64,000 nucleotides of DNA from Streptomyces sp. SAI-127 (GTDB lineage: Bacteria; Actinomycetota; Actinomycetes; Streptomycetales; Streptomycetaceae), in NCBI RefSeq assembly GCF_029894425.1, contig NZ_JARXYJ010000001.1:310001-374000 (forward strand), given 5' to 3'. A model generated the notes under the pieces. It did not search any database, was not told the origin of the DNA, and was given only the letters and a program-made list of their open reading frames with translations. Shown piece after piece: positions 40,276-64,000 of this stretch. Made by a program: the position numbers and the translations under genes. Within the stretch, counting starts at the first letter, position 1, and every line of letters begins with the position of its first letter.

Positions 40276-40290
40276 GTCGTCCGTCCGGGA

Positions 40291-41742: not shown

Positions 41743-41779
41743 GTGGGTGCTCCTCGGGAGGTGATCAGCGGGTTCGGGT

Positions 41780-43613: not shown

Positions 43614-43619
43614 GTCTGT

Positions 43620-43645
43620 GTTCCTCTGGAAGGGTTCCTCTGGAA
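43620..43645 (-). repeat. Duplicated Shine-Dalgarno region before the formaldehyde dehydrogenase gene
   Basis: The 12-bp unit TTCCAGAGGAAC (minus strand) occurs twice, at 43631-43620 and 43645-43634. Each copy carries AGAGGA. The proximal copy is correctly spaced (8 nt) from the ATG at 43613; the second looks like a tandem duplication. Confidence 0.6.
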
Positions 43646-43676
43646 AGTCGAGTGGGTCGGCGACGCGTCGACTTGG

Positions 43677-49567: not shown

Positions 49568-50119
49568 TCACGCCAGAGGGCCGCCCAGCAGTTCCGTGAC
49601 GGTCGTGACGCGGACGAGCGGCCGGTACAGGTCCATGACGTGCAGGGCCTGGGCGTGATAGTCGTCGTCCACGCCCGCGCAGGCGTCGGCGACGACCAGC
49701 ACCTCCACTCCGGCGTCGGCGGCGGCGAGCGCCGTGGACAGTACGCAGCAGTCTGTGCTGACGCCTGCCAGGACCAGGCGGCCTCCTGGTGCGGCTCGGG
49801 CGGCGAGTTCGGGGGTCCACTTGCCGAGAGTGGACGCGTCCAGGACGTCGTGCGCGAGGGGCGCGAACTCGTCCGTCAGCCGCCAGAGCGGGGCGTCGGG
49901 CGGTTGGAGCGCGAAGGGCCATCGGTCGTAGTAGGCGCGCCAGGCGCCGGTGGGCTGCGCGGGGGCGATGAAGCGGGTGAAGGTGACACGCTCGGCGAAG
50001 GCCGGCAGCAAGCGTCGTACGCCTGCTGCCGCCTCGGTGTAGCGGGGAGCCGCCCAGGGGCTCGCGGGGTCGGCGAAGACGTCCTGCATGTCGATGACGG
50101 CAAGCCAGCCGGTCGTCAT
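49568..50119 (-). CDS. Isochorismatase-family cysteine hydrolase
   Basis: 183 residues. Catalytic residues: Asp in LAVIDMQDVF, Lys in STLGKWTPEL and Cys in VSTDCCVLSTALAAADAG. It is shorter than the hydrolase at 22589 and lacks its N-terminal extension, so it is closer to nicotinamidase-like or generic cysteine hydrolases. It should cleave an amide or carbamate. ATG 50119 overlaps the stop of the 64-codon ORF (ATGA). The promoter upstream of that ORF shares a 25-bp element with the glutamine synthetase promoter, so it is probably co-regulated with the amine-assimilation genes. Confidence 0.88.
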   Translation of the reverse strand: MTTGWLAVIDMQDVFADPASPWAAPRYTEAAAGVRRLLPAFAERVTFTRFIAPAQPTGAWRAYYDRWPFALQPPDAPLWRLTDEFAPLAHDVLDASTLGKWTPELAARAAPGGRLVLAGVSTDCCVLSTALAAADAGVEVLVVADACAGVDDDYHAQALHVMDLYRPLVRVTTVTELLGGPLA

Positions 50120-50310
50120 ACGGTCACCGCCCCCTCCTGTGCGCGGACGCGGTCCCGGCCCAGGGCCGGCGTGCCGAGGAAGCCGGGGGCAGTGGCAGTG
50201 GCAGGCCGGGTGAGCAGCAGCGGGACGGCGGGCACCTCGCCGTAACGGTCGTCGGGGTGGTGGAGGGACAGCGGTCGGTCCGCTGTCGTGTCGGCTCGGT
50301 GTTCCGTCAT
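50116..50310 (-). CDS. Small 64-residue protein coupled to the isochorismatase-family hydrolase
   Basis: ATG 50310 has AGGACGG about 10 nt upstream, and the stop overlaps the hydrolase ATG by 4 nt. The protein is hydrophilic (MTEHRADTTADRPLSLHH start; PGFLGTPALGRDRV near the end), with no membrane segment and no family that I recognise. The coupling and its place directly after the regulated promoter suggest that it is translated. It could be a partner of the hydrolase or simply a leader ORF. Confidence 0.5.
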   Translation of the reverse strand: MTEHRADTTADRPLSLHHPDDRYGEVPAVPLLLTRPATATAPGFLGTPALGRDRVRAQEGAVTV

Positions 50311-50451
50311 CGTCGACCTGTCCGTCCTGGTGAGTGGGTGGGCGGGGGTGGCGGGAGAGTAGCCGACGCTGCGATCCACGACGGAGAGCGGGATGACCGC
50401 CGTCGGGTCGTCCTTCCGTGCGCAGACTCCTTCAGAGGAGTTTAACCGAGA

Positions 50452-50476
50452 GAAACATTGTTTCACAACAGTAGAC
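50452..50476. promoter_or_regulatory. Shared 25-bp element, copy 1 (palindrome GAAACATTGTTTC plus AGTAGAC)
   Basis: The perfect 13-bp palindrome GAAACATTGTTTC (50452-50464) is followed 5 nt later by AGTAGAC (50470-50476). Over all 25 positions, 18 match the sequence at 56667-56691. It lies 142 nt upstream of the 64-codon ORF and 44 nt past the XRE-cupin stop. The XRE-cupin protein encoded at 50520 is a candidate binder. Confidence 0.65.
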
Positions 50477-50519
50477 AGGGACGTCACAGGACTGCTCCGC
50501 GGCTGATCAAGGCCGAGCT

Positions 50520-51152
50520 TCAGTGCTGGGGGCTGTCCCCGAAGGCCGTCACGGTGAGGAACTGGATGGGGAGTTCGACCAGCGTCTCCGGGCCGTGCGG
50601 GGCCTCGCCGTCGAACTGGAGGGCGTCGCCGGGGCGCAACGTGTAGCTGGACTTGCCGTGGCCGTAGACCATGACGCCTTCCAGCATGTACAGGAGTTCG
50701 GTGCCCGCATGCTGGAAGAGCGGGAAGACCTCGCTCTCCTCGGTCAGGGTGACCAGCAGGGCGTCCATCCGCTTGTGGGCGCCCCGGAGCGAGCCGAGCT
50801 GGGCGTACTCGTGACCGACCCTGGTGCCCCGCCGGACGATCCGGGCGCCGTGACCGGCGGGGACGAACACCGCCTCGCGTTCGTCGTCCATGCCGCGGAA
50901 CAGGGCCGTGACGGGCACGTCCAGACCGCGGGCGAGCCGGGAGAGCGTGGTGAGACTGCACGCGGTCTGGGCATTCTCGATCTTCGACAGCATGGCCTTC
51001 GAGATGCCGACCCGCTGCGCCATGTCGCCGACCGACAGCCCGGCCGCCTGCCGGTATTCGCGGGCGCGGACCGCGATGATGCGCTCCAGCGCCTTGTCGT
51101 CGGAGTCGTCGGGGTCCGCGGAGTCCGCTGCGGGGGTGGGGTGCTCGGTCAC
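50520..51152 (-). CDS. XRE-family regulator with cupin sensor (PuuR-like)
   Basis: 210 residues from GTG 51152. Helix-turn-helix at ~25-80 (REYRQAAGLSVGDMAQRVGI, KAMLSKIENAQTACSLTTLS). Cupin at ~125-205 (VFPLFQHAGTELLYMLEGVM and LRPGDALQFDGEAPHGPETL). It is the last gene of the glutamine synthetase operon, 9 nt after the flavoprotein oxidase, and sits immediately upstream of the promoter that carries the 25-bp element. The architecture is that of PuuR-type regulators of polyamine/amine catabolism, which often accompany gamma-glutamyl-type synthetases. Target assignment is inference. Confidence 0.92.
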   Translation of the reverse strand: MTEHPTPAADSADPDDSDDKALERIIAVRAREYRQAAGLSVGDMAQRVGISKAMLSKIENAQTACSLTTLSRLARGLDVPVTALFRGMDDEREAVFVPAGHGARIVRRGTRVGHEYAQLGSLRGAHKRMDALLVTLTEESEVFPLFQHAGTELLYMLEGVMVYGHGKSSYTLRPGDALQFDGEAPHGPETLVELPIQFLTVTAFGDSPQH

Positions 51153-51161
51153 CGGCGCATC

Positions 51162-52250
51162 CTAGCCCGCGCGGTCCAGCCGGAAGCGCGGATGGGGCTC
51201 GGCCCGGCCGGTGGCGAGGTCGGCCGCCATCGCGCCGATGAGCGGGGCGAATTTCGCGCCGTGGCCGGAGCACGGGGAGGCGATGACGAACGGGCCGTGC
51301 CGGTCGAGGACGAAGTCCTCGTCGTGGGTGGTGGTGTAGAGGCAGGTCGCCTCGGCCACCGGGTCGGGTTCGAGGCCCGGGAGGCGGTCGCGTACGAAGC
51401 CGCTCACCCGCGTGCGCGACGACGCGTCGACGACCCCGCTGCGGGTGCGGGCGGTGGTGGGGGTGCCGCGATCGTGCTCGGCGACCTTGACCGCGGGCAG
51501 CGGACCGCCGTCGCTTCCGGACGGCAGCCCGTAGAGATGCAGTTCCCCGTCCCAGATCAGGGTCGGCCACCGCACGGACGGATCCCGCTGCCGGAAGTGG
51601 AAGACCTGCTGCTGGGTCACCTCCAACGGCGGTAGGGAAAAGGGCAGTTCGAGGGCCGGCAGCCAGGCACCGACTGCGATCACCACGGTGTCGGCGACGA
51701 TCTCGCGGCCGTCGTCGGTGTGCAGGAGCACCTTCTCGCCGCCCTGGACGTCGATGCCCGTGACGCGCACGCCGATGATCCCTTCCGCGCCGTGCTCGAT
51801 CGCCCGCCGAACGCAGGCCGCGACGGTCTGGTCGGCGTCGACGACGCCCGCGTCCGGGTGGTACAGCACAGGGCCTGTGATGCGGAGGTACGGCCAGCGC
51901 TCCGAGGCGGCTTCCGGGCCGAGGAGTTCGTGGGGCACCGCGGCCGCGTCGAGGAGGGCGGAGAGTCCCTCCGTGTCGCGGTCCTCGCCCATGTCGAGGC
52001 CACCGGTCGTGCGCAGCAAGGGAGTCGAGCTGTCGTCCTCCAGTTCCCGCCACTGCTCGTGCGCCTGCCCGGTCAGCCGTACGTAGAAGGGGTCGGCGTA
52101 CGCCCGCCGGAAGATCCTCGAGCTGCCGTGCGAACTGCCGTGACTGTGGCCGATGTCGTACGCCTCGACGAGCGTGACCTCGTGGCCGCGACGGGCGAGC
52201 TGCCAGGCGGTGGCCGCGCCCATCAGTCCGGCGCCTACGACGGCGATCAC
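51162..52250 (-). CDS. FAD amine oxidase, sarcosine oxidase/N-methyltryptophan oxidase type
   Basis: 362 residues from GTG 52250, overlapping the GlxD stop by 4 nt. MIAVVGAGLMGAATAWQLAR is the FAD site, RIFRRAYADPFYVRLT the MSOX-type segment, and Cys303 in EATCLYTTTHDEDFVLD is at the covalent-flavin position of monomeric sarcosine oxidase. ASPCSGHGAKFAPLIG completes the family signature. It should demethylate an N-methyl amino acid to give amino acid, formaldehyde and H2O2. Beside N-methylglutamate synthase-like genes, N-methylglutamate is an attractive substrate, by inference. Confidence 0.9.
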   Translation of the reverse strand: MIAVVGAGLMGAATAWQLARRGHEVTLVEAYDIGHSHGSSHGSSRIFRRAYADPFYVRLTGQAHEQWRELEDDSSTPLLRTTGGLDMGEDRDTEGLSALLDAAAVPHELLGPEAASERWPYLRITGPVLYHPDAGVVDADQTVAACVRRAIEHGAEGIIGVRVTGIDVQGGEKVLLHTDDGREIVADTVVIAVGAWLPALELPFSLPPLEVTQQQVFHFRQRDPSVRWPTLIWDGELHLYGLPSGSDGGPLPAVKVAEHDRGTPTTARTRSGVVDASSRTRVSGFVRDRLPGLEPDPVAEATCLYTTTHDEDFVLDRHGPFVIASPCSGHGAKFAPLIGAMAADLATGRAEPHPRFRLDRAG

Positions 52251-53566
52251 AGACCCTCCCCGGGGATCCAGTTCGTTCCCGCGAGTGGGACGCGGGCCAT
52301 GGCGGCGGACTCGATCGTGAGCGCGACCAGGTCCTCGGGCTCCAGATGCAGGAGGTGGGCCTTGCCGCAGGCGCGGGCAAGGGTCTGGGCCTCCATGGTC
52401 ATCACACGCAGGTAGTTCGCGAGCCGGCGACCGGCCTCGACCGGTTCGAGGCGGGCGGCGAGTTCCTCGTCCTGGGTGGAGATGCCGGCCGGGTCGCGGC
52501 CGTCCTGGTAGTCGTCGAAGTAGCCTGCGGCGGAGCCCAGTCGACGGTACTCGGCATCGTACTTGGGGTGGTTGTCGCCGAGCGCGATGAGCGCCGCCGT
52601 CCCGATCGCGACCGCGTCCGCGCCCAGAGCGAGGGCCTTGGCCATGTCGGCGCCGCCGCGGATGCCGCCGGAGACGATGAGCTGGACCTCGCGGTGGACC
52701 CCCAGCTCCTGCAGCGCCCGCACCGCTTGGGGCAGCGCGGCCAAGGTGGGGATGCCGACGTGCTCGATGAAGACGTCCTGGGTGGCGGCCGTGCCGCCCT
52801 GCATTCCGTCGACGACCACGACGTCGGCGCCCGCGTGGACGGCGAGCTTGACGTCGTAGTACGTCCGGGTCGCGCCGACCTTCACATAGATCGGCTTCTC
52901 CCAGTCGGTGATCTCGCGCAGTTCGAGGATCTTGATCGCGAGGTCGTCCGGGCCGGTCCAGTCGGGGTGGCGGCAGGCGCTGCGCTGGTCGATGCCGACG
53001 GGCAGCGTCCGCATACCCGCGACCCGTTCGGTGATCTTCTGGCCGAGCAGCATGCCTCCACCGCCGGGCTTGGCGCCCTGGCCGAGGACGACCTCGATGG
53101 CGTCGGCCTTGCGCAGATCGTCGGGGTTCATGCCGTAGCGGGACGGCAGGTACTGGTGGACGAGGTGCTTGGAGTGGCCCCGCTCCTCCGGGGTCATCCC
53201 GCCGTCGCCGGTGGTCGTCGAGGTGCCGACTTCGCTGGCACCGCGGCCGAGGGCCTCCTTGGCCTGGGCAGACAGGGCGCCGAAGCTCATGCCGGCGATG
53301 GTGACGGGGGTGGCGAGGCGCAGGGGGTGCTTGGCGTGCCGGGTGCCGAGGACGACGTCGGTGTCACAGCGCTCGCGGTAACCCTCCAGCGGGTAGCGCG
53401 ACATGGAGGCGCCGAGCAGCAACAGGTCGTCGAAGTGCGGAAGCTTCCGCTTGGCGCCCCAGCCACGGATGTCGTAGACGCCGGTCTCGGCGGCTCGCTG
53501 GATGGCGTGGATGGTGGCACGGTCGAAGGTGGCCGACTCGCGCAGGCCGTGGGCTGCGGGTTCCAA
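52247..53566 (-). CDS. Glutamate synthase-like FMN domain protein (GlxD / N-methylglutamate synthase subunit C-like)
   Basis: About 439 residues. I place the start at TTG 53566, 6 nt after AGAGGAG; the frame is open to 53638, but that part contains a GC hairpin and looks intergenic. The FMN barrel of glutamate synthase is clear: PVTIAGMSFGALSAQAKEAL, TGDGGMTPEER, GQGAKPGGGGMLLGQKI, VVVDGMQGGTAATQDVF and IVSGGIRGGADMAKALALGA. It catalyses the synthase half-reaction of a three-part enzyme with GlxB and GlxC. It lies between GlxC and the amine oxidase. Confidence 0.9.
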   Translation of the reverse strand: MEPAAHGLRESATFDRATIHAIQRAAETGVYDIRGWGAKRKLPHFDDLLLLGASMSRYPLEGYRERCDTDVVLGTRHAKHPLRLATPVTIAGMSFGALSAQAKEALGRGASEVGTSTTTGDGGMTPEERGHSKHLVHQYLPSRYGMNPDDLRKADAIEVVLGQGAKPGGGGMLLGQKITERVAGMRTLPVGIDQRSACRHPDWTGPDDLAIKILELREITDWEKPIYVKVGATRTYYDVKLAVHAGADVVVVDGMQGGTAATQDVFIEHVGIPTLAALPQAVRALQELGVHREVQLIVSGGIRGGADMAKALALGADAVAIGTAALIALGDNHPKYDAEYRRLGSAAGYFDDYQDGRDPAGISTQDEELAARLEPVEAGRRLANYLRVMTMEAQTLARACGKAHLLHLEPEDLVALTIESAAMARVPLAGTNWIPGEGL

Positions 53567-53594
53567 TGTCAACTCCTCTGATGGGGCGAGGTGT

Positions 53595-53614
53595 CGCGCC
53601 CCCTGAGGGGCGCG
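53595..53614 (-). repeat. Stable hairpin in the glxC-glxD intergenic gap
   Basis: CGCGCCCC-CTGA-GGGGCGCG gives an 8-bp GC stem 29 nt upstream of the GlxD start, inside a 167-nt gap of an otherwise tight operon. It may attenuate transcription or stabilise the upstream transcript. Confidence 0.5.
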
Positions 53615-53733
53615 GGGCCGTACGGGTGTGCGGCTCACCGCGCGGGCGCGACCGGCGACATCCGGCCCGCGGAATGCGGATGGAAACGGAAGGCGGATGA
53701 ATACGGACTCCCAGCGGGGCTGATACGCCGCCG

Positions 53734-54408
53734 CTAATACGCCGCCGAGTTGCCGACGTTGAAGTGGTATAGCGTCCTGGCGGAGCCGTACCGTCGGAAA
53801 TCCGCCGCGTCCTCGTCCCGCTCGGCCGCCTTGAGCAACTCGGCCAGTTCGACGAAGTGTTCCGCCCGCATCTCCTTCTCCACGCAGTCCGCGCCGAGGG
53901 ACTTCACCGCGCCCCGGACGTAGATCCGCGCCTCATAGAGGGAGTCCCCGAGGGCTTCCCCGGCGTCGCCGCAGACGACCAACCGCCCGGCCTGCCCCAT
54001 GAATGCGCTCATGTGGCCGACGTTTCCGCCGACGACGATGTCCACGCCTTTCATGGAGATGCCGCACCGGGCGGACGCGTCCCCGTCGACGACGAGCAGT
54101 CCGCCGTGCGCGGTGGCCCCGGCCGACTGGGACGCGTTGCCGCGCACCCGCACGGTGCCGGACATCATGTTCTCGGCGACTCCGGTGCCGGCGTTGCCGT
54201 GGACGGTCACCGTGGCGCGCTGGTTCATGCCGGCGCAGTAGTAGCCGACGTGACCTTCGATGTCGACGGCGAGATCCTCCCGGACCCCGCAGGCCACGGC
54301 GTGCGCGCCGCGCGGGTTGAGAACTCGCCAGGACGCGGCTTCGGGGGCGTGCAGGGCCTGGTTGAGCTCCCGCACCGGTGTCCTGGCCAGGTCGATCAGC
54401 GTCGCCAT
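53734..54408 (-). CDS. GXGXG-domain protein (GlxC / N-methylglutamate synthase subunit B-like)
   Basis: 224 residues. The right-handed beta-helix of the glutamate synthase C-terminal (GXGXG) domain is evident from repeated glycine-rich turns: VDIEGHVGYYCAGMNQRATV, VHGNAGTGVAENMMSGTVRV, GDASARCGISMKGVDIVVG and GNVGHMSAFMGQAGRLVVCG. It is a structural subunit connecting the amidotransferase and FMN synthase parts. Its start overlaps the GlxB end by 13 nt, showing tight coupling. Confidence 0.9.
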   Translation of the reverse strand: MATLIDLARTPVRELNQALHAPEAASWRVLNPRGAHAVACGVREDLAVDIEGHVGYYCAGMNQRATVTVHGNAGTGVAENMMSGTVRVRGNASQSAGATAHGGLLVVDGDASARCGISMKGVDIVVGGNVGHMSAFMGQAGRLVVCGDAGEALGDSLYEARIYVRGAVKSLGADCVEKEMRAEHFVELAELLKAAERDEDAADFRRYGSARTLYHFNVGNSAAY

Positions 54409-55253
54409 ATGTACACCTCTTCCGGCTCGGGTTCGAAGATCCGGGCGTTCTCGATACCCGGCAGGACGTCCAGCGCCCGGTACTCGGAGGCCATCGCCAC
54501 CCACGCGTCGGTCTCGGCGACCAGCGCCGGCTTGCAGGCGATGGCGTCGCGGACGACCGCGAAGGAGTCGCCGGTCGATACCAGCAACGTGTAGAAACCG
54601 TCGAACCGCTCGCACAGCAGCCGCAGCGCCTTCTCCAGGTCGGCGCCCTGCTCCAGCTGGTGGGCGACGAAGCGGGCGCCGACCTCGGAGTCGTTCTCGC
54701 TGTCGAACTCGACGCCTTGGGCGCGCAGTTCGCGGCGAATGGTGGCGTGGTTGGCGAAGGAGCCGTTGTGCACCAGGCACTGTCCGGGGCCGACGGAGAA
54801 GGGATGGGCGCCCTCGGGGGTGACCGCCGACTCGGTGGCCATGCGGGTATGGCCGACGCCCTGCCAGCCGCTCACCCCGGCGAGCCCGAACGCGTCCGCC
54901 AACTCGACGGGATTCCCGGTGCCCTTGAGTACGGCGAACCCCTCGCCGGAGCCGATCACAGTGGCTTCGGGAAGCGCGGCCGCGAGCTGGTCGGCACCGG
55001 CGTGCACCACGGTGGTGGCGTCGGCGTCGAAGGCCACCACCCCTGGCAGCGCGGCTTCCACCTCGGTCTTCGAGGTGCCCAGCAGTGAGACGACGGCCTG
55101 TCCCGGCGGGGACAGCCGCGGGTCGCCGTACACCGCGACACCCGCCGAGTCCGGGCCCCGCTCGACGACCTGGCCGAGCATCGCGCTCAGCAAGTCGCCG
55201 AGCCGTGGTTCGAGTGAGGGGTCACGCAGATGGAGCCCCACGATTCCGCACAT
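54396..55253 (-). CDS. Class II glutamine amidotransferase (GlxB / N-methylglutamate synthase subunit A-like)
   Basis: 285 residues. The start MCGIVGLHL exposes Cys2, the nucleophile of Ntn-type glutamine amidotransferases. VERGPDSAGVAVYG, GVGHTRMATESAV and CLVHNGSFANHATIRREL are the conserved Arg, Asn and Gly oxyanion elements. It hydrolyses glutamine and passes ammonia, or in the N-methylglutamate system activates methylamine incorporation, to the FMN subunit. It follows the glutamine synthetase-like gene by 57 nt. Confidence 0.92.
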   Translation of the reverse strand: MCGIVGLHLRDPSLEPRLGDLLSAMLGQVVERGPDSAGVAVYGDPRLSPPGQAVVSLLGTSKTEVEAALPGVVAFDADATTVVHAGADQLAAALPEATVIGSGEGFAVLKGTGNPVELADAFGLAGVSGWQGVGHTRMATESAVTPEGAHPFSVGPGQCLVHNGSFANHATIRRELRAQGVEFDSENDSEVGARFVAHQLEQGADLEKALRLLCERFDGFYTLLVSTGDSFAVVRDAIACKPALVAETDAWVAMASEYRALDVLPGIENARIFEPEPEEVYIWRR

Positions 55254-55268
55254 CTCAAGTCCCTTCGG

Positions 55269-55324
55269 AAGGCGGTCAAAGGCGGAAGGCGATCAAAAGG
55301 CGAGAGGCGATCAGAAGGCGGTCA
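55269..55324. repeat. Four degenerate direct repeats RAGGCGRTCA between glnA-like and glxB
   Basis: Copies start at 55269, 55286, 55304 and 55315, each of the form (A/G)AGGCG(G/A)TCA. The last two run into the 3' end of the synthetase gene. They fill most of the 57-nt gap and could be a slippage product or an RNA-processing/protein site. Confidence 0.5.
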
Positions 55325-56639
55325 GATAGCGGTCGAGCTCCCAGGGGCCGACCGTCGCGTGCCAGTCGAAGAACTCCTGGCGCTTGAGGTCCGCGAAGTA
55401 CCGGCTCACGCCGCTCCCGGCCACGTCCAGGGCACCGCTGATCACGTCGTCCGTCTGGAGGGCTTCGACCGCGTGCAGCAGGGTCGGCGGGAGTTCGGGG
55501 CCCTTGCCGCCCGCGCCCGGCTCGCCGGGGTCGAGGCCGCGCTCGATGCCGTCGAGGCCGGCGGCGAGGGCGGCGGCAGCGGCGAGGTAGGGGTTGGCGG
55601 CGCCGTCTCCGCCGCGCAGCTCGATGCGGTTGCCGTCGGGGACGCGGACGAAGTGGGTGCGGTCGTTGCCGCCGTAGCCCGCCACGCGCGGTGACCAGGT
55701 CGCGCCCGAGCGGGTGGAGACCGCGCCGGTGCGCTTGTACGAGTTGACCGTCGGGGCGATCACGGCCTGCAGGGCCGGCGCGTGCTCGACGACCCCGGCA
55801 AGGAAGGAGTAGGCGAGCGGGGAGAGACCCAGTCCGCGTCCGTCGGTGGCGTCGGGGAAGGTGGGGTGGGCGCCCCGCCACAGCGACATGTGCATATGCA
55901 TGCCGGTGCCGGTGCGGTCGGTGAAGGGCTTCGGCATGAACGTGGCCGTCATGCCGCGTTGTTCGGCCAGTACCGACACCAGGTACCGCATGGTGATGAC
56001 CCGGTCGGCGGTGGTGAGGGCGTCGGCGTGCTGGAAGTTCTGCTCGAACTGGCCGTTGCCGTCTTCGTGATCGTTGGCGTAGTTGCCCCAGCCGAGGGAG
56101 TTCATGGCGCTGGAGACCGCGGTGAGGTGGTCGTACATCCGGGTCAACCCGCGTGCGTCGTAACAGGGTTGGGCAGCGGTGTCCCTGACGTCGGCGACCC
56201 TGAGCACTCCGTGCTCGTCCCGGTTGACGAGGAAGTACTCGACCTCCGCGCCCACGGAGAGGGACAGCCCCTGCTCGGCGGCCCGCTCCAGCAGTCTGCG
56301 CAGGATGACACGCGGGGCGTACGGCCAGGGTTTCCCCTCCACGTAAGGGTCGCAGTGGACGAGCGCGAGACCGGGCTTCACGAAGGGGACCGGCGTGTAC
56401 GAGGACGCGTCCGGCCGGGCGATGACATCGGGGTCGCTGGGCTGCTGGCCGAGCGCGCCGGCCGCGTACCCGGCGAAACCGACGCCCGCGTCCCGGAGTT
56501 CCTCAACAGCTTGGGCTGGGACGAGCTTGGCGCACGGCTTGCCGGTGAGGTCGACGAAGACGGCGAGCACGAACTCGATGCCGTCAGCGCGGACCAGCTC
56601 GGCGAGATCGGGGGCGTCCGCTTCCGGGTCGGTCGTCAT
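55311..56639 (-). CDS. glnT: Glutamine synthetase III-like protein (GlnT / gamma-glutamylmethylamide synthetase type)
   Basis: 442 residues from ATG 56639 (GGGAGGGG 3-5 nt upstream). The glutamine synthetase fold is seen in VGAEVEYFLVNRDE (metal Glu), DHEDGNGQFEQNF, ATFMPKPFTDRTGTGMHMHM, APTVNSYKRTGAV and NRIELRGGDGAANPYLA. It ligates glutamate to ammonia or an amine using ATP. Its fixed linkage to GlxB, GlxC and GlxD is the arrangement known for GlnT and for GmaS of the N-methylglutamate route; sequence alone does not decide between these substrates. It starts the six-gene leftward operon. Confidence 0.88.
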   Translation of the reverse strand: MTTDPEADAPDLAELVRADGIEFVLAVFVDLTGKPCAKLVPAQAVEELRDAGVGFAGYAAGALGQQPSDPDVIARPDASSYTPVPFVKPGLALVHCDPYVEGKPWPYAPRVILRRLLERAAEQGLSLSVGAEVEYFLVNRDEHGVLRVADVRDTAAQPCYDARGLTRMYDHLTAVSSAMNSLGWGNYANDHEDGNGQFEQNFQHADALTTADRVITMRYLVSVLAEQRGMTATFMPKPFTDRTGTGMHMHMSLWRGAHPTFPDATDGRGLGLSPLAYSFLAGVVEHAPALQAVIAPTVNSYKRTGAVSTRSGATWSPRVAGYGGNDRTHFVRVPDGNRIELRGGDGAANPYLAAAAALAAGLDGIERGLDPGEPGAGGKGPELPPTLLHAVEALQTDDVISGALDVAGSGVSRYFADLKRQEFFDWHATVGPWELDRYLTAF

Positions 56640-56666
56640 GGCCCCTCCCAGGGTGTCCACTGTGGT

Positions 56667-56691
56667 GAATCAATGTTGCATCTGAGTAGAC
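56667..56691. promoter_or_regulatory. Shared 25-bp element, copy 2, before the glutamine synthetase-like gene
   Basis: GAATCAATGTTGC (56667-56679) followed by AGTAGAC (56685-56691) aligns without gaps to 50452-50476 (18 of 25 identical). It lies 28 nt upstream of the ATG, a position suited to repression. Confidence 0.65.
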
Positions 56692-56742
56692 CTCTACGGT
56701 GTTACGGCCGGATTTCCGCCGTGGAAGGTCCCCGTAAGCCGA

Positions 56743-56780
56743 AGGGCCGGGTCCGCCTCCGAAGAGGCGGACCCGGCCCT
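56743..56780 (-). terminator. Strong hairpin terminator after the NCS1 permease gene
   Basis: A perfect 17-bp stem: AGGGCCGGGTCCGCCTC (56743-56759), loop CGAA, then its exact complement (56764-56780). It lies 9 nt past the permease stop and insulates it from the glutamine synthetase promoter downstream. Confidence 0.85.
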
Positions 56781-56789
56781 GAGGTTCCG

Positions 56790-58217
56790 TCAGGACACAA
56801 CAGCCGTCGGTTCGCTGGAGCCCAGCTCGGACGAACCTCGGGAGGAGCCCCGCACCCACAGCGGCTTCAGCCGGTACGTCAGCAGGTACAGCACCGCGCC
56901 CGCTCCGGCCGCGACGAACATGCTCAGGTCGCCCGCCCCCGGATACGCGGCCGAGAACGGGCCGGTGTAGAAGCTGGACTGCCAGAACGGCACCGAGGCG
57001 GCCACCCCGCCCGCCCAGGAGACGAAGCCCCAGTCCAGCACCCGGCGGCGGTCGTAGAGCTCGGAAATGCGGGCCGGGTCGGAGCGGCCGCCCAGATAGA
57101 AGTCGAGGAGCAGCACGGCCGCGAAGGGGGCGATGAAGTACGCGGTCAGGTTGAGGAACACCTTGAACTTGTCCTCCGTGCCCGCCGCACCCCACAGGCT
57201 GATCGCGTAGGCCAGCAGACAGATGACGGTGACCGCCTGGGAGCGGCTGACCGGGATCTTCAGCGTCTGGACGGAGATCGCGCCGCCGTAGACGTTGAGG
57301 AAGTTCTGCGCGAGTGCGGACAGGCCGACGGCGAGCAGGGCGGGCACGGCGAAGGGGCCGGCCAGTTCGTGCAGGGCGGTGATCGAGTCCGAGCTGGTCG
57401 CGCTGCCGCCGACGACCACGCCCAGGATGCCCAGCCAGCAGATGGTGACGAAGTTGCCGAGGCCGGTGTACCAGGCGGTGCGGGTGACGACCTCGGGGGT
57501 GTCCGGCAGATAGCGGGAATAGTCCGAGGCGAACGGCGCCCAGGCCACCAGGAAGGACAGGAACCAGCCTCCGAAGGTGACCCAGCCGCCGGCGGAACCG
57601 ATGTAGCCGGACGCCTTCGGGTCGGCGTGGAAGAGGCTTCCGCCGCGCACGACCGCGACCACGGTGATGAGGAGGAAGAGCGGGGTGAGGACGAAGGTCA
57701 GCGCCCTCTGGAGGTAGTTGATCATGTTGTAGCCGTAGATCGACACCACCAGCTCGACCGCCGTGAGCACCGCGCCACACAGCCAGAACGGCAGATGTGT
57801 CAGCTCGGCGAACGCCTTGCCGCCCAGGATGACGGTGACCGCCGCCCAGCCGATCCCGGCGAACACGTTGATGTATGCCACGGGCAGGAAGTTGCCGAAG
57901 AATCCGAGCGGGCCGCGCGCCTGGACCTGCTGCGCCACGCCGAGCCGTACACCCATCCGGGACATGACGGCCATCAGCAGCGAGCCGAGCGCCGCCCCGA
58001 CGACGATGGCTGTGACGGCGGCGCCGAAGCTCAGCCCGAACCAGGCCGCACTGAAGCCGAGCAGGATGATCGGGAAGTTGAGACCGGCCGCGAACCAGAC
58101 GAAGAACTGCGAGCTGGGCTTGCCGTGCCGTTCGTTGTCGGGGATGTGGTCGATGCCGAAGGGCTCGATCTTGGTGACCGCGCTGCCGTAGACCGGCGCC
58201 GGTGTTCCGTCTGTCAT
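56790..58217 (-). CDS. NCS1-family nucleobase/heterocycle permease
   Basis: 475 residues with about 12 hydrophobic helices. KIEPFGIDHIPDNERHGKPS at the N-terminus is the NCS1 hallmark; FAGIGWAAVTVILGGKA and WFLSFLVAWAPFASDYSRYL match conserved helix 3 and 6 segments. NCS1 proteins import cytosine, uracil, allantoin, hydantoin, thiamine or pyridoxine with Na+ or H+. ATG 58217 is 28 nt past the SnoaL/flavin-reductase stop, in the same leftward unit. A heterocyclic substrate for the neighbouring flavin monooxygenase is a direct inference. Confidence 0.93.
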   Translation of the reverse strand: MTDGTPAPVYGSAVTKIEPFGIDHIPDNERHGKPSSQFFVWFAAGLNFPIILLGFSAAWFGLSFGAAVTAIVVGAALGSLLMAVMSRMGVRLGVAQQVQARGPLGFFGNFLPVAYINVFAGIGWAAVTVILGGKAFAELTHLPFWLCGAVLTAVELVVSIYGYNMINYLQRALTFVLTPLFLLITVVAVVRGGSLFHADPKASGYIGSAGGWVTFGGWFLSFLVAWAPFASDYSRYLPDTPEVVTRTAWYTGLGNFVTICWLGILGVVVGGSATSSDSITALHELAGPFAVPALLAVGLSALAQNFLNVYGGAISVQTLKIPVSRSQAVTVICLLAYAISLWGAAGTEDKFKVFLNLTAYFIAPFAAVLLLDFYLGGRSDPARISELYDRRRVLDWGFVSWAGGVAASVPFWQSSFYTGPFSAAYPGAGDLSMFVAAGAGAVLYLLTYRLKPLWVRGSSRGSSELGSSEPTAVVS

Positions 58218-58245
58218 GTGGTGCTCCTGCTCGGGTGGGTCGGGG

Positions 58246-59181
58246 TCACCACGGCAACGGCGCCGTGTGCGAGATGTCGAAGAAACCGCCGCCGCTGTAG
58301 ACCAGCGGGGCGAGGTCGTCGTGCCGGGCGGAGACCACCCGGCCGGTGAACACGGTGTGGCTGCCGGCCTCGAGCCGCTGTCCGATCTCGACCTCCAGCT
58401 GGGCGCAGGAGCCGTCGATCAGCGGGGCGCCGAAGTCACCGGGGGTCCAGGAGATACGGGCGAACTTGTCGTCGCCCTTGGAGGCGAAGGTCTTCGCCAC
58501 GTCGAGCTGGTCGGCGGCCAGGATGCTGATGCCGAGATGGCTCGACCGGTGCAGTGCGGGATGGGTGCTGGAGCTGTGCTGCACGCAGACCAGGACCATT
58601 GGCGGGTCGAGCGAGATGCTGGAGAAGGCGTTGACCGCGAGGCCGCGGGGCGTGCCGTCGTCGTCCGTGGTCACCACGGTGACGCCGGTGATGAACTTGC
58701 GGTGCACCCCGCGCACCAGGTCGGCGTCGACGGCGGCCCGCTGGACGGTGGAAATGATCCCGAGCGCCTCCAGGAGCTGCCGGGAGTCAAAGGTCACCCA
58801 CTCCTCGGCGACCGAGGGCCCCTCGAAGCGGGCGAAGGTCGCGCCGGACACCTCGACCGGTTTCCCGGTGGGCGGCACACCGAGGAAGTCCCCGGTGTGC
58901 CGGCCGGCGCTGCGCCAGCGGATCGCCAGCCGGTCGCCGTCCTCGACGATGTCCTCGATCTCGGTCCGCAGGTCGGGGAACGCCTCACGGACGGCGCGGA
59001 TGGAGTCCTTGAGCTGGTCCCGGTCCTGTGTGACGGACGCGGGCCCGCGGCGGCGGACGTAGGAGGGGCTGAGCAGCTCATCCAGGGCGTCGAGGTGTCC
59101 CTGGTCCCAGGCGGCGCGCCAAGCGGAGCGGACACGGGAGCTGCGATCGGCGGCGGCGGGGCGGTCAAGAGTGTGGGTCAT
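58246..59181 (-). CDS. SnoaL-like domain fused to flavin reductase domain
   Basis: 311 residues. Residues ~15-135 form an NTF2/SnoaL-like polyketide-cyclase-type domain (AWRAAWDQGHLDALDELLSP, LKDSIRAVREAFPDLRTEIE, HTGDFLGVPPTGKPVEVSGA). Residues ~150-311 are a split-barrel flavin reductase (FITGVTVVTTDDDGTPRGLA, VNAFSSISLDPPMVLVCVQ, LGISILAADQLDVAKTFASK). The reductase half should supply reduced flavin to the divergently encoded luciferase-like monooxygenase. The SnoaL half may bind or isomerise its product. The fusion itself is unusual. Confidence 0.88.
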   Translation of the reverse strand: MTHTLDRPAAADRSSRVRSAWRAAWDQGHLDALDELLSPSYVRRRGPASVTQDRDQLKDSIRAVREAFPDLRTEIEDIVEDGDRLAIRWRSAGRHTGDFLGVPPTGKPVEVSGATFARFEGPSVAEEWVTFDSRQLLEALGIISTVQRAAVDADLVRGVHRKFITGVTVVTTDDDGTPRGLAVNAFSSISLDPPMVLVCVQHSSSTHPALHRSSHLGISILAADQLDVAKTFASKGDDKFARISWTPGDFGAPLIDGSCAQLEVEIGQRLEAGSHTVFTGRVVSARHDDLAPLVYSGGGFFDISHTAPLPW

Positions 59182-59298
59182 GGTGGGTCCCTCAGTCAGC
59201 TCTTGTATGGCAGAGGACCGTAGGGAGGGGATGGTTCGGTGTCAACACCTCATCCGGAAAAGCCTGGTGATTGCTTCAGTGGCGATCAAACGCACAGG

Positions 59299-59319
59299 TC
59301 AGACTTGTTTCTGAGTAGT
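59299..59319. promoter_or_regulatory. Partial copy 3 of the shared element in the divergent monooxygenase promoter region
   Basis: TTGTTTC (59305-59311) is followed directly by TGAGTAG (59312-59318); CTGAGTAG also occurs at 56682-56689. Relative to copies 1 and 2 the spacer is about 4 nt shorter, so this is a weaker match. It lies between the flavin-reductase and monooxygenase starts. Confidence 0.35.
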
Positions 59320-59392
59320 TAACCCTTGACGGCACTGATTCCGGACTCCTAGCCTCACTGCCATGGCACAGCGAGAGAGGGAAGGTCACGGG

Positions 59393-60517
59393 ATGCGATT
59401 CTCGATATTCCACAACCTCGGAGCCCCCGGGCGGCTCGGCGAGTACGCCCAAGTGATGGACGAGGCCCGGGAGTTCGCAGTCGCCGCGGAACAGGCCGGT
59501 TTCTGGTCCACCTGGTACACCGAGCACCACTTCGGGCACGAGGCGATCGAGATCACGCCGAACCCGGTCCTGATGGGCGCCGACATCGCGGCCCGTACGT
59601 CACGTATCCGCATCGGCCAGGCGGCCTCCATCGCCACCTTCTGGCATCCACTGCGGCTGGCCGAGGACATCGCGATGCTCGACCAGCTCTCCGGCGGCCG
59701 TGTCGAGGTCGGCCTCGGCCGTGGTCTGTACGGCCGCGAGGCACTCAACCTCAATGCCCTGGCCGACCCGCGCGACCAGGAGCAGAACCGGGCTCTGTAC
59801 GACGAGACGGTCGAGATCCTGCGCAAGGCGTGGAGCGGCGAGTTCTTCTCCCACAAGGGCCGCTTCTACGAGTTCCCGGCCCCCGGCGTGAAGTGGAACC
59901 ACCCGCTCTCCCCGGCGACGGACGACTACACGACCGCCGGCGCCATCACGAAGATGCAGGTCACTCCCTTCCCCCTGCAGCGTCCGCACCCGCCCCTGTG
60001 GCAGGTCATCGACAGCCCCCGCTCCATCCAGGCAGCGGCTGCCGACGGCGTGCAGGGCATGTTCTGGCTCCCACCGGTGTCGGCCCTCAAGGACCGCTTC
60101 GAGCTGTACCGCGCCACGGCGAGCGAGGCCTCGGGCCGGGAGTACGCCCTCGGCGAGGGCATCGGCCTGGTACGGGACGTCTACGTCGCCGACACCATGG
60201 AGCAGGCACGCGCCGACTTCGAGGAGGCGCTGATGACGACCTACCGCTGGATCATGCACTGGCGCGGGCTGAGCAATCTCATGGAGGCCGGCGAGGAGCT
60301 CACCGACGCGCACGAGCTGTCCTTCGACTTCCTCCAGGACAGAAACCTGCTGGTCGGCACGCCCGAGTACGTCGCCGAGAAGGTGGCGGAGCTGCGCGAC
60401 GAGGTCGGCCTCGAGCACCTCCTGCTGTGGACCACGCACCCGGGGCTCGAGCACCGCAAGGCGATGCGCAGCCTGGAGCTGTTCGCGGAGAAGGTCATGC
60501 CGGAGTTCGCCGTATGA
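59393..60517 (+). CDS. LLM class flavin-dependent monooxygenase
   Basis: 374 residues from ATG 59393 (GGAAGG 7 nt upstream; ATG 59363 would add ten residues). The luciferase-like TIM barrel is shown by FAVAAEQAGFWSTWYTEHHF, RIRIGQAASIATFWHPLRLA, EDIAMLDQLSGGRVEVGLGR and the late GTPEYVAEKVAEL. It uses reduced FMN and O2 to oxidise or cleave a substrate, as RutA does with uracil. Its partner reductase is encoded divergently. It leads a four-gene block with 4-nt overlaps, so its products act with the DUF1185 pair and the hydrolase. Confidence 0.92.
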   Translation: MRFSIFHNLGAPGRLGEYAQVMDEAREFAVAAEQAGFWSTWYTEHHFGHEAIEITPNPVLMGADIAARTSRIRIGQAASIATFWHPLRLAEDIAMLDQLSGGRVEVGLGRGLYGREALNLNALADPRDQEQNRALYDETVEILRKAWSGEFFSHKGRFYEFPAPGVKWNHPLSPATDDYTTAGAITKMQVTPFPLQRPHPPLWQVIDSPRSIQAAAADGVQGMFWLPPVSALKDRFELYRATASEASGREYALGEGIGLVRDVYVADTMEQARADFEEALMTTYRWIMHWRGLSNLMEAGEELTDAHELSFDFLQDRNLLVGTPEYVAEKVAELRDEVGLEHLLLWTTHPGLEHRKAMRSLELFAEKVMPEFAV

Positions 60518-61119
60518 GCACGGGCGTCCGGAAGGTCGTGACCGTCGTGGAGGAGGTGCTGCTGGAACTCGGCCGCCCGGTGGCGACTCCGGTACGGCGG
60601 GTCGCGGTGGCCGCGGTGCTCCGCAACCCCTGGGCGGGGCGCGGTTTCGTGGCCGACCTGCAGCCCGCGGTCGAGGAGGTGGCACCGGAGCTGGCGCAGT
60701 TGCTGACCGGGAAGCTGATCGACGCGCTGGGCGGAGCCGACCGCGTCGAAGCCTTCGGCAAAGCGGCGGTCGTGGGCCTGGACGGAGAGATCGAGCACGG
60801 CGGCGCGCTGATCCACACGCCGTACTTCGGCAACGTCCTGCGGGAGTTGACCGGGGGCACGTCGATCATCGTCTTCAGCGACGACAGGCTGCCGGCCGGT
60901 GAGCCGCTCACCGTCCCGCTGTGGCACAAGACGGCCGCCGCGACCCGCTCGCACTACCAGACCGTCCAGATCCGCGTCCCGGACGCTCCCCGGCCCGACG
61001 AACTCGTCGTGGTCGCCGCCGCCGCGTCCGGCCCGCGCCCCAATGCCCGTATCGGCGACCGTCGTACGGATCCCGCCGTCCGTCTCGCCGACCTGGAGAA
61101 GCTGGAGACCGCCCGATGA
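60514..61119 (+). CDS. DUF1185 ("amino acid synthesis") family protein, copy 1
   Basis: 201 residues. NPWAGRGFVADLQP, then EVAPELAQLL, AFGKAAVVGLDGEIEHGGAL and IHTPYFGNVLREL are conserved PF06684 features. The biochemical role of the family is not firmly known. The start overlaps the monooxygenase stop by 4 nt, and the stop overlaps the second copy. Compared with copy 2, the N-terminus is longer and the middle (PAGEPLTVPLWHKTAAATRS) is diverged, suggesting unlike subunits or sequential steps. Confidence 0.88.
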   Translation: MSTGVRKVVTVVEEVLLELGRPVATPVRRVAVAAVLRNPWAGRGFVADLQPAVEEVAPELAQLLTGKLIDALGGADRVEAFGKAAVVGLDGEIEHGGALIHTPYFGNVLRELTGGTSIIVFSDDRLPAGEPLTVPLWHKTAAATRSHYQTVQIRVPDAPRPDELVVVAAAASGPRPNARIGDRRTDPAVRLADLEKLETAR

Positions 61120-61667
61120 ACGTCCGCAAGATCATCACCTTCACCGAGGACATCCACACCGAGGGCGGCCGCAACGTCGACCCGCCCGCCCGTACCGCGG
61201 TGGTGCTCGCCGTGATCGAGAACCCATGGGCGGGACAGGGCTTCGTCACCGACCTCATGCCCGGCATCGACGAAGTCGCCCCGAAACTCGGCGAGTTGCT
61301 GGCCCCACGGGTGGTGGAGGCGCTCGGGGTGCCGGTGGAGGCGTACGGGAAGGCGGCGATCGTCGGACTGGACGGGGAGATCGAGCACGGCTCGGCGCTG
61401 ATCCACACGCTGAAGTTCGGCGACCACTTCCGCAAGGCGGCTCAGGCGACGACATTGCTGCCGGCCGTGGAGAAGCGGGCGGCGGCCGGAACGGTCTTCG
61501 ACATCCCGCTGAAGCACATCACGGACGCCACGATCCGCTCGCATCACCAGACGATCGAGGTCCGCGTGCCGGACGGCCCGCGCGCGGACGAGATCGTCAT
61601 CGGCCTGGCGGCCGCGGCGCAGGGGCGGCCGCAGGCCCGGCTGGCGCCGCTGTCGACGGAACGATGA
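61116..61667 (+). CDS. DUF1185 family protein, copy 2
   Basis: 183 residues. It shares with copy 1 the blocks NPWAGQGFVTDLMP, EVAPKLGELL, AYGKAAIVGLDGEIEHGSAL and IHTLKFGDHFRKA, so the pair is a tandem duplication. The start MNVRKIITFTEDIHTEGGRN and the VFDIPLKHITDATIRSHHQT segment are typical of the family. It overlaps both neighbours by 4 nt. A heteromeric enzyme of the two copies is possible. Confidence 0.88.
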   Translation: MNVRKIITFTEDIHTEGGRNVDPPARTAVVLAVIENPWAGQGFVTDLMPGIDEVAPKLGELLAPRVVEALGVPVEAYGKAAIVGLDGEIEHGSALIHTLKFGDHFRKAAQATTLLPAVEKRAAAGTVFDIPLKHITDATIRSHHQTIEVRVPDGPRADEIVIGLAAAAQGRPQARLAPLSTER

Positions 61668-62449
61668 CCACGGTGGGCCCGTCGGTGGCGCTGAGCCACG
61701 AGGTGCACGGCACCGGTCCCGACCTCGTGCTGCTGCACGGTGTAGGGCTCGACCGGTCGATGTGGGAACGCTGCCTGCCCGCACTGGCCGAACGGCACCG
61801 CGTGAAGATGATCGACCTGCGCGGACACGGCACGTCTCCGCCGGCGGCTCCCGGGGTGTCCCTGCCGGAGCTGGCGGCTGACGTGGCGGCACTGCTGGAC
61901 GGCCCCGCGCACCTCGTGGGCTTCTCTCTCGGCGCCCTGATCGCGCAGCAACTGGCCGCTGTGAGGCCCGAGTTGACAGCCTCAGTCACCCTGGTCAGCT
62001 CCGTCGCCGGACGATCGCGGGAGGAGCGGACGGCCGTGGCACGGCGCCGGGAACGGGCCGTGACGGATTTCGAGGCGTCGGCGCTCGCGGCGGTGGAGCG
62101 CTGGTTCTCGCCGGCGTGGCGGACCAGGGAGCCCGAGCTGGCCCGGTCGGTCCTCACCACCCTGCTGAAGAACGACCACACGTCGTACCTGGCCTGCTAC
62201 GACGTGTTCGCCACCGCGGACGCGGCGCTGTGGCCCCGCCTGCCCGACATCACGGCACCGACCCTCGCTGTGACAGGCGCGGACGACCCCGGCTCGACCC
62301 CGGCGATGTCCCGACTGCTCGCCGACAGGATCCCCGGTGCCCGCGCGATGATCGTGCCCGGAACACGTCACCTGCTCCCGCTGGAACGCCCGAAGGACCT
62401 CATCGAGGCGATCCTTCACCACACGGAGGGGATGGCAGCGCCCCACTAG
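61664..62449 (+). CDS. Alpha/beta-fold hydrolase
   Basis: 261 residues. LVLLHGVGLDRSMWE is the HG oxyanion region, LVGFSLGALIAQQLA the nucleophile elbow (Ser in GFSLG), TGADDPGSTP supplies the acidic residue and PGTRHLLPLERP the catalytic His. It is of the size and type of RutD, 3-oxoadipate enol-lactonase and similar ring-pathway hydrolases. It overlaps the second DUF1185 stop by 4 nt and is probably the last gene of the tightly coupled block. Confidence 0.92.
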   Translation: MTTVGPSVALSHEVHGTGPDLVLLHGVGLDRSMWERCLPALAERHRVKMIDLRGHGTSPPAAPGVSLPELAADVAALLDGPAHLVGFSLGALIAQQLAAVRPELTASVTLVSSVAGRSREERTAVARRRERAVTDFEASALAAVERWFSPAWRTREPELARSVLTTLLKNDHTSYLACYDVFATADAALWPRLPDITAPTLAVTGADDPGSTPAMSRLLADRIPGARAMIVPGTRHLLPLERPKDLIEAILHHTEGMAAPH

Positions 62450-62530
62450 GGGCGGGGCCGCGTCGGCATGCGGCTCCGCCGCGTGGCCGCGAGCAACCAC
62501 ACACAACCCGCAGCCGAGGAGCAGCCCGCA

Positions 62531-64000
62531 TGACCCCACTCCCTCGCCACCAGCACTACATCGCCGGCGAATGGACAGCCCCCGCCTCCGGCGAGTACTT
62601 CGAGAGCGTCAACCCGACCACCGGCCGGCCCTGGTACGAGGCGGCCGACGGAACCGCCGAGGACATCGACCGCGCCGTCAAGGCCGCCCGAACCGCCTTC
62701 GAGGACCCCCGCTGGCGCGACCTCAGCCAGACCGGGCGAGGCCGCCTTCTTCGCAACCTCGCCGAACTCATCGGCGAAAACGCGGCGGAGCTGGCCCGCA
62801 CCGAGACCCTCGACAACGGCAAGCTGCTGCGCGAGATGCGCGCCCAACTCGCGGGTCTCCCCGAGTACTTCCACTACTACGCCGGACTCGCCGACAAGAT
62901 CCACGGCGAGGTCATCCCGGGCGCGAGCCGCGACCTGCTCAACTACACCCTGCGCGAACCGGTGGGCGTGGTCGGCGCGATCACCCCCTGGAACTCCCCT
63001 CTCCTGCTGACCGCCACGAAACTCGCCCCCGCACTCGCCGCCGGCAACACCGTGGTCGTCAAGCCGTCCGAACACACCTCTGCTTCCCTGCTGGCCCTCG
63101 CCCCGCTCTTCGAGCAGGCCGGCTTCCCGCCGGGCGTCGTCAACGTGGTCACCGGATACGGCGCCACGGCGGGCGCCCCGCTCACCGAGCACCCCGACGT
63201 GGCCAAGGTGACCTTCACCGGCTCCACCGAGACCGGCCGCCGTATCGCCCGAACCTGCGCGGACCGCTTCGTACGCTGCACTCTCGAACTCGGCGGCAAG
63301 TCGCCGAACATCGTCTTCCCGGACGCCGATCTCCCCTCCGCGGCCATGGGTGTGGTCGCCGGCATCTTCGCCGCCGCCGGCCAGACGTGCGTGGCGGGCA
63401 GCCGCGTGCTCGTGCACCGGGACGTCTACGACGAGATCCTGGAGCGGGTGACGGCGCGAGCCGCCAGTATCCGCATCGGCGACCCCCTGGAGGACACGAC
63501 CGAGCTGGGCCCGCTGGCCCTGGCCGACCAACTGGCGAAGGTCGAGTCGTACGTCGAGCTGGGTCTGTCGGAGGGCGGCAAGGTGGTCTGCGGTGGAGCG
63601 CGGCCCGTGACCGGTCTCGGCGGCTGGTTCTACTCCCCCACGGTCTTCACCGGCACGGACAACTCGATGCGCATCTGCCAGGAGGAGATCTTCGGTCCGG
63701 TCGCCACGGTCATGCCGTTCGCGTCCGAGGAAGAGGCCCTCGCCATAGCGAACGACTCGGTCTACGGTCTGGCCGCGGGCGTGTGGACCCGGGACGTCAA
63801 CCGCGTCCACCGCATGGCGGCGCGCCTGGAGGCGGGCACCGTCTGGGCCAACACGTACCGGTCGATGTCGCCGATGTCACCGCGCTCGGGCTTCAGGAGC
63901 AGCGGCACGGGCGTCGAACACGGCACGGAGGTCATCCGGGAGTACACCCGGCTGAAGAGCGTGTGGGTCAACACGAGCGAGGAACCTGTGGGTGATCCCT
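62531..64000 (+). CDS. Aldehyde dehydrogenase (3' end cut by window)
   Basis: 490 codons are visible to the window edge, with no stop yet; only a few residues should be missing. GAITPWNSPLLLTATKLAPA, then FTGSTETGRRIART, LELGGKSPNIVF (catalytic Glu) and AAAGQTCVAGSRV (catalytic Cys), and EEIFGPVATVMPF identify the ALDH family. It lies 81 nt past the hydrolase on the same strand, so it is probably in the same unit. It should oxidise a semialdehyde formed by ring cleavage to an acid with NAD(P)+. Confidence 0.93.

Follow-up and report, generated by a model that had tools for sequence, protein, structure and literature searches.

Genes of the island

The window analysed here is a 64,000-nucleotide stretch of Streptomyces sp. 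SAI-127 (contig 1, positions 310001-374000, of a 10.7 Mb source genome), whose right-hand end carries an island of genes for a flavin monooxygenase, its putative helper enzymes and an amine route. A sequence-only reading had described this island as a Rut-like but non-Rut module and as its best candidate for an undescribed pathway, in which an N-heterocycle is opened oxidatively with recovery of nitrogen. As confirmed by Pfam and NCBIfam scans of the window, the genes it named are all present as open reading frames (ORFs) with the assigned domains. The + strand carries, in this order, a luciferase-like monooxygenase (LLM), two DUF1185 proteins, an alpha/beta hydrolase and an aldehyde dehydrogenase (ALDH); LLMs of the window lineage are termed W-type here. 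On the - strand, the SnoaL/flavin reductase is followed by the NCS1 permease, type III glutamine synthetase, amidotransferase, GXGXG subunit, FMN glutamate synthase, FAD oxidase, XRE regulator and isochorismatase. The features are as follows.

49568..50119, - strand: isochorismatase-family cysteine hydrolase (PF00857, 92 bits)
50520..51152, - strand: XRE-cupin regulator (PF01381, PF07883)
51162..52250, - strand: FAD oxidase of the monomeric sarcosine/N-methyltryptophan oxidase family, proposed N-methylglutamate oxidase (PF01266)
52247..53638, - strand: FMN glutamate synthase-like subunit, MgsC-like (PF01645, 302 bits)
53734..54408, - strand: GXGXG subunit, MgsB/GlxC-like (PF01493; called 'protein glxC' in an Acinetobacter plasmid set)
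54396..55253, - strand: glutamine amidotransferase-like subunit, MgsA-like (PF13522/PF13537)
55311..56660, - strand: type III glutamine synthetase, proposed gamma-glutamylmethylamide synthetase (GMAS) (TIGR03105, 603.5 bits, cut-off 469.6)
56790..58217, - strand: NCS1 permease, proposed betaine importer (PF02133, 122 bits)
58246..59181, - strand: SnoaL domain fused to a flavin reductase, proposed supplier of reduced flavin (PF01613, 150 bits; PF07366)
59363..60517, + strand: W-type LLM flavin monooxygenase, proposed ring-opening oxygenase (PF00296, 180 bits)
60514..61119, + strand: DUF1185/AA_synth protein 1, TgnF family (PF06684, 214.6 bits)
61116..61667, + strand: DUF1185/AA_synth protein 2, TgnF family (PF06684, 209.6 bits; PDB 2qtp, SPO0826, 141 bits)
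61664..62449, + strand: alpha/beta hydrolase, proposed to be TgnD-like and to act on a ring-opened N-formyl acid (PF12697/PF00561)
62530..64017, reaching beyond the window end at 64000, + strand: aldehyde dehydrogenase, proposed TgnC-like (PF00171, 589 bits)

Most relatives of the window LLM start at the equivalent of 59393 rather than 59363. Beyond the window edge, a GntR/FCD regulator overlaps the end of the ALDH gene, and one succinate-semialdehyde dehydrogenase (SSADH) gene lies 2.5 kb further on, on the opposite strand (66492-67976 of the extended contig; TIGR01780, 701 bits, cut-off 646). The PDB matches of the hydrolase include (N-acetylaminomethylene)succinate hydrolase (3kxp, 46.6 bits, not the top match). 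The SnoaL fusion, listed by the sequence-only reading as a distinguishing trait, is present in the window, but SnoaL and flavin reductase are separate ORFs in sister loci.

The broad enzyme classes are those of the Rut pyrimidine pathway; LLM, flavin reductase, isochorismatase, alpha/beta hydrolase and nucleobase-family permease are all present. However, the RutF and RutD models score only 72.6 bits (cut-off 254.75) and 52.1 bits (cut-off 238.5), RutB is missing from the four families listed for the isochorismatase, and RutA is not among the best 25 of 29 matches for the LLM. Helper and transporter families also differ from those of Rut, and a Rut-like route would leave both the DUF1185 proteins and the kinship with TgnB cassettes (see below) unexplained. 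On the NCBIfam scores, Rut membership was rejected, in line with the 'non-Rut' label given earlier, and a Rut-like pyrimidine pathway is highly improbable.

Conservation of the cassette

One scan of genome contigs yielded 80 loci; the LLM is W-type in 73 of them and remote (29-34% identity) in seven. LLM, DUF1185, hydrolase and ALDH stand together in 67 of the 73 W-type loci and in none of the seven remote-LLM loci, the latter being control stretches of only 4-18 kb, shorter than most test loci. The complete core set is found in 20/22 Streptomycetaceae (L016 was assigned to Streptomyces and this family by ourselves), 12/12 Pseudonocardiaceae, 3/3 Micrococcaceae, 26/26 Bacillota and 6/10 Proteobacteria. 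Among the six incomplete loci, four are truncated (L015, L024, L070 and L072), DUF1185 is missing from L068, and neither hydrolase nor ALDH is present in L073. The linkage of the cassette genes is not due to chance, and the gene set and linkage described by the sequence-only reading are real. Two findings that it had named as contrary to itself did not appear: linkage is conserved, and the oxygenase does not belong to the alkane/sulfonate group. An alkanesulfonate-type LLM was rejected, as the SsuD model scores 32.6 bits against a cut-off of 518.

One of the near-copies is the locus of Streptomyces sp. LUP47B (L009), whose LLM is 99% identical to that of the window. By record title, six of the 73 W loci are from Pelagibacteraceae, and metagenome clusters with W-type LLMs have up to 2,852 members. 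A flavin reductase, of either of two folds, is found in 62/63 non-proteobacterial and 1/10 proteobacterial W loci. An isochorismatase-family member lies in the stretch in 3/22 Streptomycetaceae, 3/3 Micrococcaceae and 10/26 Bacillota loci. The transporters vary: NCS1 in 20/22 Streptomycetaceae loci; BCCT in 8/12 and NCS1 in 4/12 Pseudonocardiaceae loci; BCCT in 14/26 and a remote NCS1 in 13/26 Bacillota loci; and a branched-chain-type binding protein in 4/10 proteobacterial loci. BCCT carriers typically transport betaines, and their presence hints at a zwitterionic N-methyl compound as the substrate. In 25/26 Bacillota W loci we also observed a family of ∼101-109 residues with no Pfam or NCBIfam match (L046:14101-14424 and relatives).

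Kinship with trigonelline cassettes and exchange of the oxygenase

Trigonelline degradation by TgnA-F was reportedly described in Acinetobacter baylyi ADP1 by Perchat in 2018. According to later reports, TgnA/TgnB open the trigonelline ring (PMC8269262), TgnF stimulates TgnE-dependent oxidation of succinate semialdehyde in A. baylyi, and the DUF1185 protein HcdD is homologous to TgnF (PMC7913881). Like the Tgn set of A. baylyi ADP1, the window combines an LLM and a flavin reductase with ALDH, hydrolase and DUF1185; judged by homology, its helpers (ALDH, hydrolase, DUF1185 pair, NCS1, flavin reductase and GntR regulator) are of the Tgn type, and orthologues of these helpers adjoin TgnB-type LLMs in Actinobacteria. 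Different from Tgn, the window has an oxygenase of another LLM lineage, two DUF1185 copies and a SnoaL domain on the reductase, and SSADH is mostly not adjacent in W loci. The sequence-only reading overlooked that the set corresponds to trigonelline degradation, a pathway already described. Neither DUF1185 nor the NCS1 permease sets the island apart, as had been proposed: the former belongs to the Tgn set as TgnF (PMC7913881), and a TgnB-bearing cluster of Acinetobacter junii also carries an NCS1-family permease. What is unusual here is the oxygenase lineage and the attached N-methylglutamate route.

As TgnB reference we used P0121, an Acinetobacter protein that carries the NCBI name trigonelline monooxygenase and was identified by that name. 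LLMs of A. junii, Rhizobium and A. dokdonellae are 92%, 71% and 50% identical to P0121, respectively, and the window LLM only 26.6%. In a tree of 40 sampled LLMs (12 W-type, 11 TgnB-type, 4 related, 6 outgroup and 7 own paralogues), the W-type falls together with five of the six LLMs from other contexts (support 100/98), whereas the TgnB-type groups with the related set (100/99); a single clade of W and TgnB types was rejected (p-AU 2.1e-10). The window oxygenase is not a TgnB orthologue but belongs to a separate LLM lineage. Comparison of 54 W-type sequences plus the window, 33 TgnB-type and 6 outgroup LLMs identified 42 columns fixed alike in both types and 27 fixed differently, seven of the latter being gaps in TgnB. 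Tyr123 and Trp300 are common to both types and found in 0/6 outgroups, and Glu126 in 1/6; this pattern carries little weight, because the outgroup is small. Among 346 actinobacterial genomes, three (own included) carry a W LLM and two a TgnB-type LLM, so that genome-wide co-occurrence of the two types in Actinobacteria is uninformative. Among 50 W genomes searched (50 of the 73 loci), two have a TgnB-like LLM (80% and 41%).

The DUF1185-hydrolase-reductase-LLM-ALDH set recurs in plasmid clusters of Rhizobium, Sinorhizobium, Ruegeria, Leisingera and A. junii; SSADH is present in three of seven such stretches, A. dokdonellae included (L092, L096 and L097). In three actinobacterial cassettes, helpers resembling those of the window accompany a TgnB-type LLM. 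Compared to the window, the A. dokdonellae plasmid (L092) is 58% identical for NCS1, 58 and 75% for the two DUF1185 proteins, 46% for the hydrolase and 68% for the ALDH; the corresponding values are 84%, 60 and 78%, 51% and 71% for L122 of S. samsunensis, and for L125 they are 64 and 72% (DUF1185), 45% (hydrolase) and 67% (ALDH). The proteobacterial TgnB clusters are more distant (ALDH 46-50%).

Trees were built for ALDH (42 rows), hydrolase (43) and DUF1185 (43), leaving out L095, a stretch without LLM, and L123, which is of the remote type; the groups used in the tests had already been seen in earlier trees. The LLM-type label has to change 4, 4 and 3 times on the ALDH, hydrolase and DUF1185 trees, respectively, and well-supported branches force 4, 3 and 2 of these changes. 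Placing the TgnB-type rows in one clade was rejected in all three trees (p-AU 3e-5, 1e-7 and 3e-6, in the same order); placing the actinobacterial W rows in one clade was rejected for ALDH (6e-4) and hydrolase (1e-8). The NCS1 tree, which contains no row for L095 or L123, has three forced changes with only three TgnB-type rows, and shuffled labels need as many (2.9 on average). Cassettes with TgnB and those with W-type LLMs interleave in the ALDH, hydrolase, DUF1185 and NCS1 trees, and the simplest reading of the interleaved helper trees is that the oxygenase was exchanged on one cassette. Transport and later steps would have been kept in such an exchange, most easily if the two LLM types share the substrate or the ring-opened intermediate, so both probably feed the same or similar intermediates. 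Among the matches listed in our literature search, the titles and opening lines of abstracts report no second trigonelline oxygenase.

L130-L133 carry one further LLM type, ∼40% identical to TgnB, with ALDH and hydrolase and in most cases reductase and DUF1185; these cassettes adjoin amino-acid or glycine-betaine ABC transporters and probably represent a third substrate class.

Methylamine genes and the proposed pathway

The adjoining genes, which the sequence-only reading had called linked amine assimilation, are indeed attached to the cassette, an unusual arrangement; specifically, they are predicted to encode a methylamine route of GMAS, three N-methylglutamate synthase subunits and the FAD oxidase. 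The second-best PDB match of the type III glutamine synthetase is glutamate--methylamine ligase (9qur, 365 bits). On plasmids, glnT is followed by the amidotransferase, GXGXG and FMN subunit genes in the order seen in the window, and the window FMN subunit is 80-87% identical to those beside glnT. Such a three-subunit set has been proposed as N-methylglutamate synthase in Mycobacterium (PMC5023230). Like the known N-methylglutamate pathway, the island has GMAS and three synthase subunits in the plasmid gene order; different from it, the island, to which our search was limited, has no MgdABCD but a monomeric FAD oxidase instead. This oxidase scores 249.4 bits against PRK11259, below the cut-off of 257, and matches sarcosine oxidase 7exs with 181 bits. 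An FAD oxidase follows the FMN subunit in all nine other actinobacterial copies read, and is of the window kind (54-94% identity) in L106-L109, L111, L113 and L129 and remote (27-28%) in L110 and L114; in the annotated Acinetobacter copy L128 it does not follow. The XRE-cupin regulator travels with the N-methylglutamate genes, adjoining the set in other loci too. The single-subunit FAD oxidase may replace the N-methylglutamate dehydrogenase MgdABCD as a putative N-methylglutamate oxidase.

The genes for GMAS and the synthase lie next to the W cassette in two arrangements, one shared by the window, L009 and L016 and the other seen in L014. In L117 the FMN subunit adjoins NCS1, the SnoaL-reductase and a DUF1185 fragment, without LLM; in Azospirillum B510 it is next to a TgnB-type cluster, and on the A. 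junii plasmid ∼15 kb separate it from such a cluster. It is found in 5/20 W-bearing Streptomyces, the window strain and L009 being near-copies, versus 5/150 random Streptomyces. Two of the five random positives are themselves W-bearers (the genomes of the window and, as identical coordinates show, of L016), and for the other three no genome-wide search for a W LLM was made; 5/20 versus 3/148 gives a Fisher p of 0.0007, with kinship ignored. Only six of 51 W-bearing genomes searched possess the FMN subunit and thereby the synthase, and the synthase set also stands alone, as in L118-L121 and L129. These counts would suit a cassette that opens a heterocycle without N-methyl, of the pyridine or nicotinate type, with the methylamine genes as an unrelated neighbour. 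Such a reading is rather improbable in view of the two arrangements of the set beside W cassettes, the one beside a TgnB-type cluster, and the BCCT transporters in W loci.

With modest confidence, we take the island to serve the breakdown of an N-methylated pyridine betaine, with trigonelline (N-methylnicotinate) as the most likely one; of the earlier claims, oxidative opening of an N-heterocycle with nitrogen recovery remains the best description. The substrate and every reaction are inferred, and the ring chemistry follows what the A. baylyi trigonelline study is said to have established. The NCS1 permease would import the betaine, and the W-type LLM would open the ring with reduced flavin from the SnoaL-flavin reductase. 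The ALDH would oxidize the resulting aldehyde; next, assisted by the DUF1185 proteins, the alpha/beta hydrolase would break the N-formyl enamide, releasing methylamine, formate, CO2 and succinate semialdehyde. GMAS would load the methylamine onto glutamate, the three-subunit synthase would move it to 2-oxoglutarate, and the FAD oxidase would remove the methyl group as formaldehyde, leaving glutamate. Overall, the island appears to be of a pathway type that is already known; its oxygenase comes from a different lineage, and a methylamine route that uses a one-protein oxidase is joined to it.

In L129 (Streptomyces NBC_01320), the FAD oxidase is followed by an S-(hydroxymethyl)mycothiol dehydrogenase, a 78% identical copy of which lies at 42531-43613 of the window, distant from the N-methylglutamate set; no formaldehyde gene was found beside the set in the 12 other stretches searched. 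The window copy belongs to a - strand unit (42531-46383) of mycothiol-dependent formaldehyde dehydrogenase (TIGR03451, 678 bits, cut-off 513), ferredoxin reductase, Rieske ferredoxin and P450. The PDB relatives of the P450 include the O-demethylase GcoA; the unit is possibly a demethylase, and the P450 system is itself a possible source of formaldehyde.

Several observations weigh against trigonelline. Since the LLM is not a TgnB orthologue and 27 columns are fixed differently, the pockets may differ, and the presence of both LLM types in S. samsunensis would be odd for a single substrate, although the TgnB-type gene there has two in-frame stops. Among actinobacterial W loci, a GabD-type SSADH is nearby only in the window strain and L009, and SSADH is near 1/22 Streptomycetaceae W loci. 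A second ALDH is present in 21/26 Bacillota W loci; the one scanned is closer to lactaldehyde/sulfoacetaldehyde types. N-methylglutamate synthase is lacking in 45 of the 51 W-bearing genomes searched, and for the six Pelagibacteraceae loci homarine may be the commoner compound.

The main rival is the same machinery acting on homarine (N-methylpicolinate) or another pyridinium betaine. Homarine catabolism is said to have been treated by Ferrer-Gonzalez in Nat Microbiol in 2026. By analogous bond cleavage, ALDH and hydrolase steps, a homarine route would give N-methyl-2-iminoglutarate, and from it either 2-oxoglutarate and methylamine or else N-methylglutamate, a possible substrate for demethylation by the FAD oxidase. 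Homarine is isomeric with trigonelline; its catabolism involves N-methylglutamate metabolism with the participation of Mgd (PMC13390433), R. pomeroyi draws it down fast (PMC12817926), and it was reported to exceed trigonelline in sea particles (PMC8269262), although by a later correction homarine levels had been overstated. The route needs one ALDH only, as in most actinobacterial W loci, and in L010 an FAD oxidase lies beside the W cassette in a genome without a match to N-methylglutamate synthase. Against homarine, the W helpers and transporter are intermingled in the trees with their counterparts from TgnB cassettes, most Bacillota W loci have the second ALDH, and no imine reductase is conserved in W cassettes. 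The window does carry, at 47737-48720 (+), an ornithine cyclodeaminase/ketimine reductase-like gene with an adjoining LysR regulator (top NCBIfam model pyrroline-2-carboxylate reductase, below cut-off), but among the loci listed it is matched (40%) in L014 only. We consider homarine or another such betaine unlikely, yet a serious candidate; trigonelline is our best guess, as it would explain both the helper set and the methylamine genes.

More tentatively, and at somewhat less than an even chance, the W-type LLMs could be an unrecognised, independently evolved family of pyridine-betaine ring-opening enzymes, which has repeatedly traded places with TgnB on a shared cassette; Gram-positives and Pelagibacter may take such betaines into metabolism mainly through these enzymes, with methylamine nitrogen in Streptomyces recovered by a reduced N-methylglutamate route with its one-protein oxidase. 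The family was compared with the TgnB reference and LLM samples, which include no homarine oxygenase, and the passages covered by our literature search contained no hom gene sequences. A search for trigonelline degradation that relies on TgnB homology would overlook the cassettes of Gram-positives and Pelagibacter. Should trigonelline or homarine be the substrate, the genes would explain how a common plant osmolyte or an abundant marine metabolite is turned over. With two LLM lineages in one pathway slot, substrate recognition in this enzyme class becomes open to direct comparison.

Elsewhere in the window, 4-hydroxyphenylacetate degradation genes (HpaB, HpaD, a FAH/RraA fusion and an ALDH) occupy 35392-42006 on the - strand, and an amidase and an AtzH-like domain are joined in a single frame at 23355-24935 (-).

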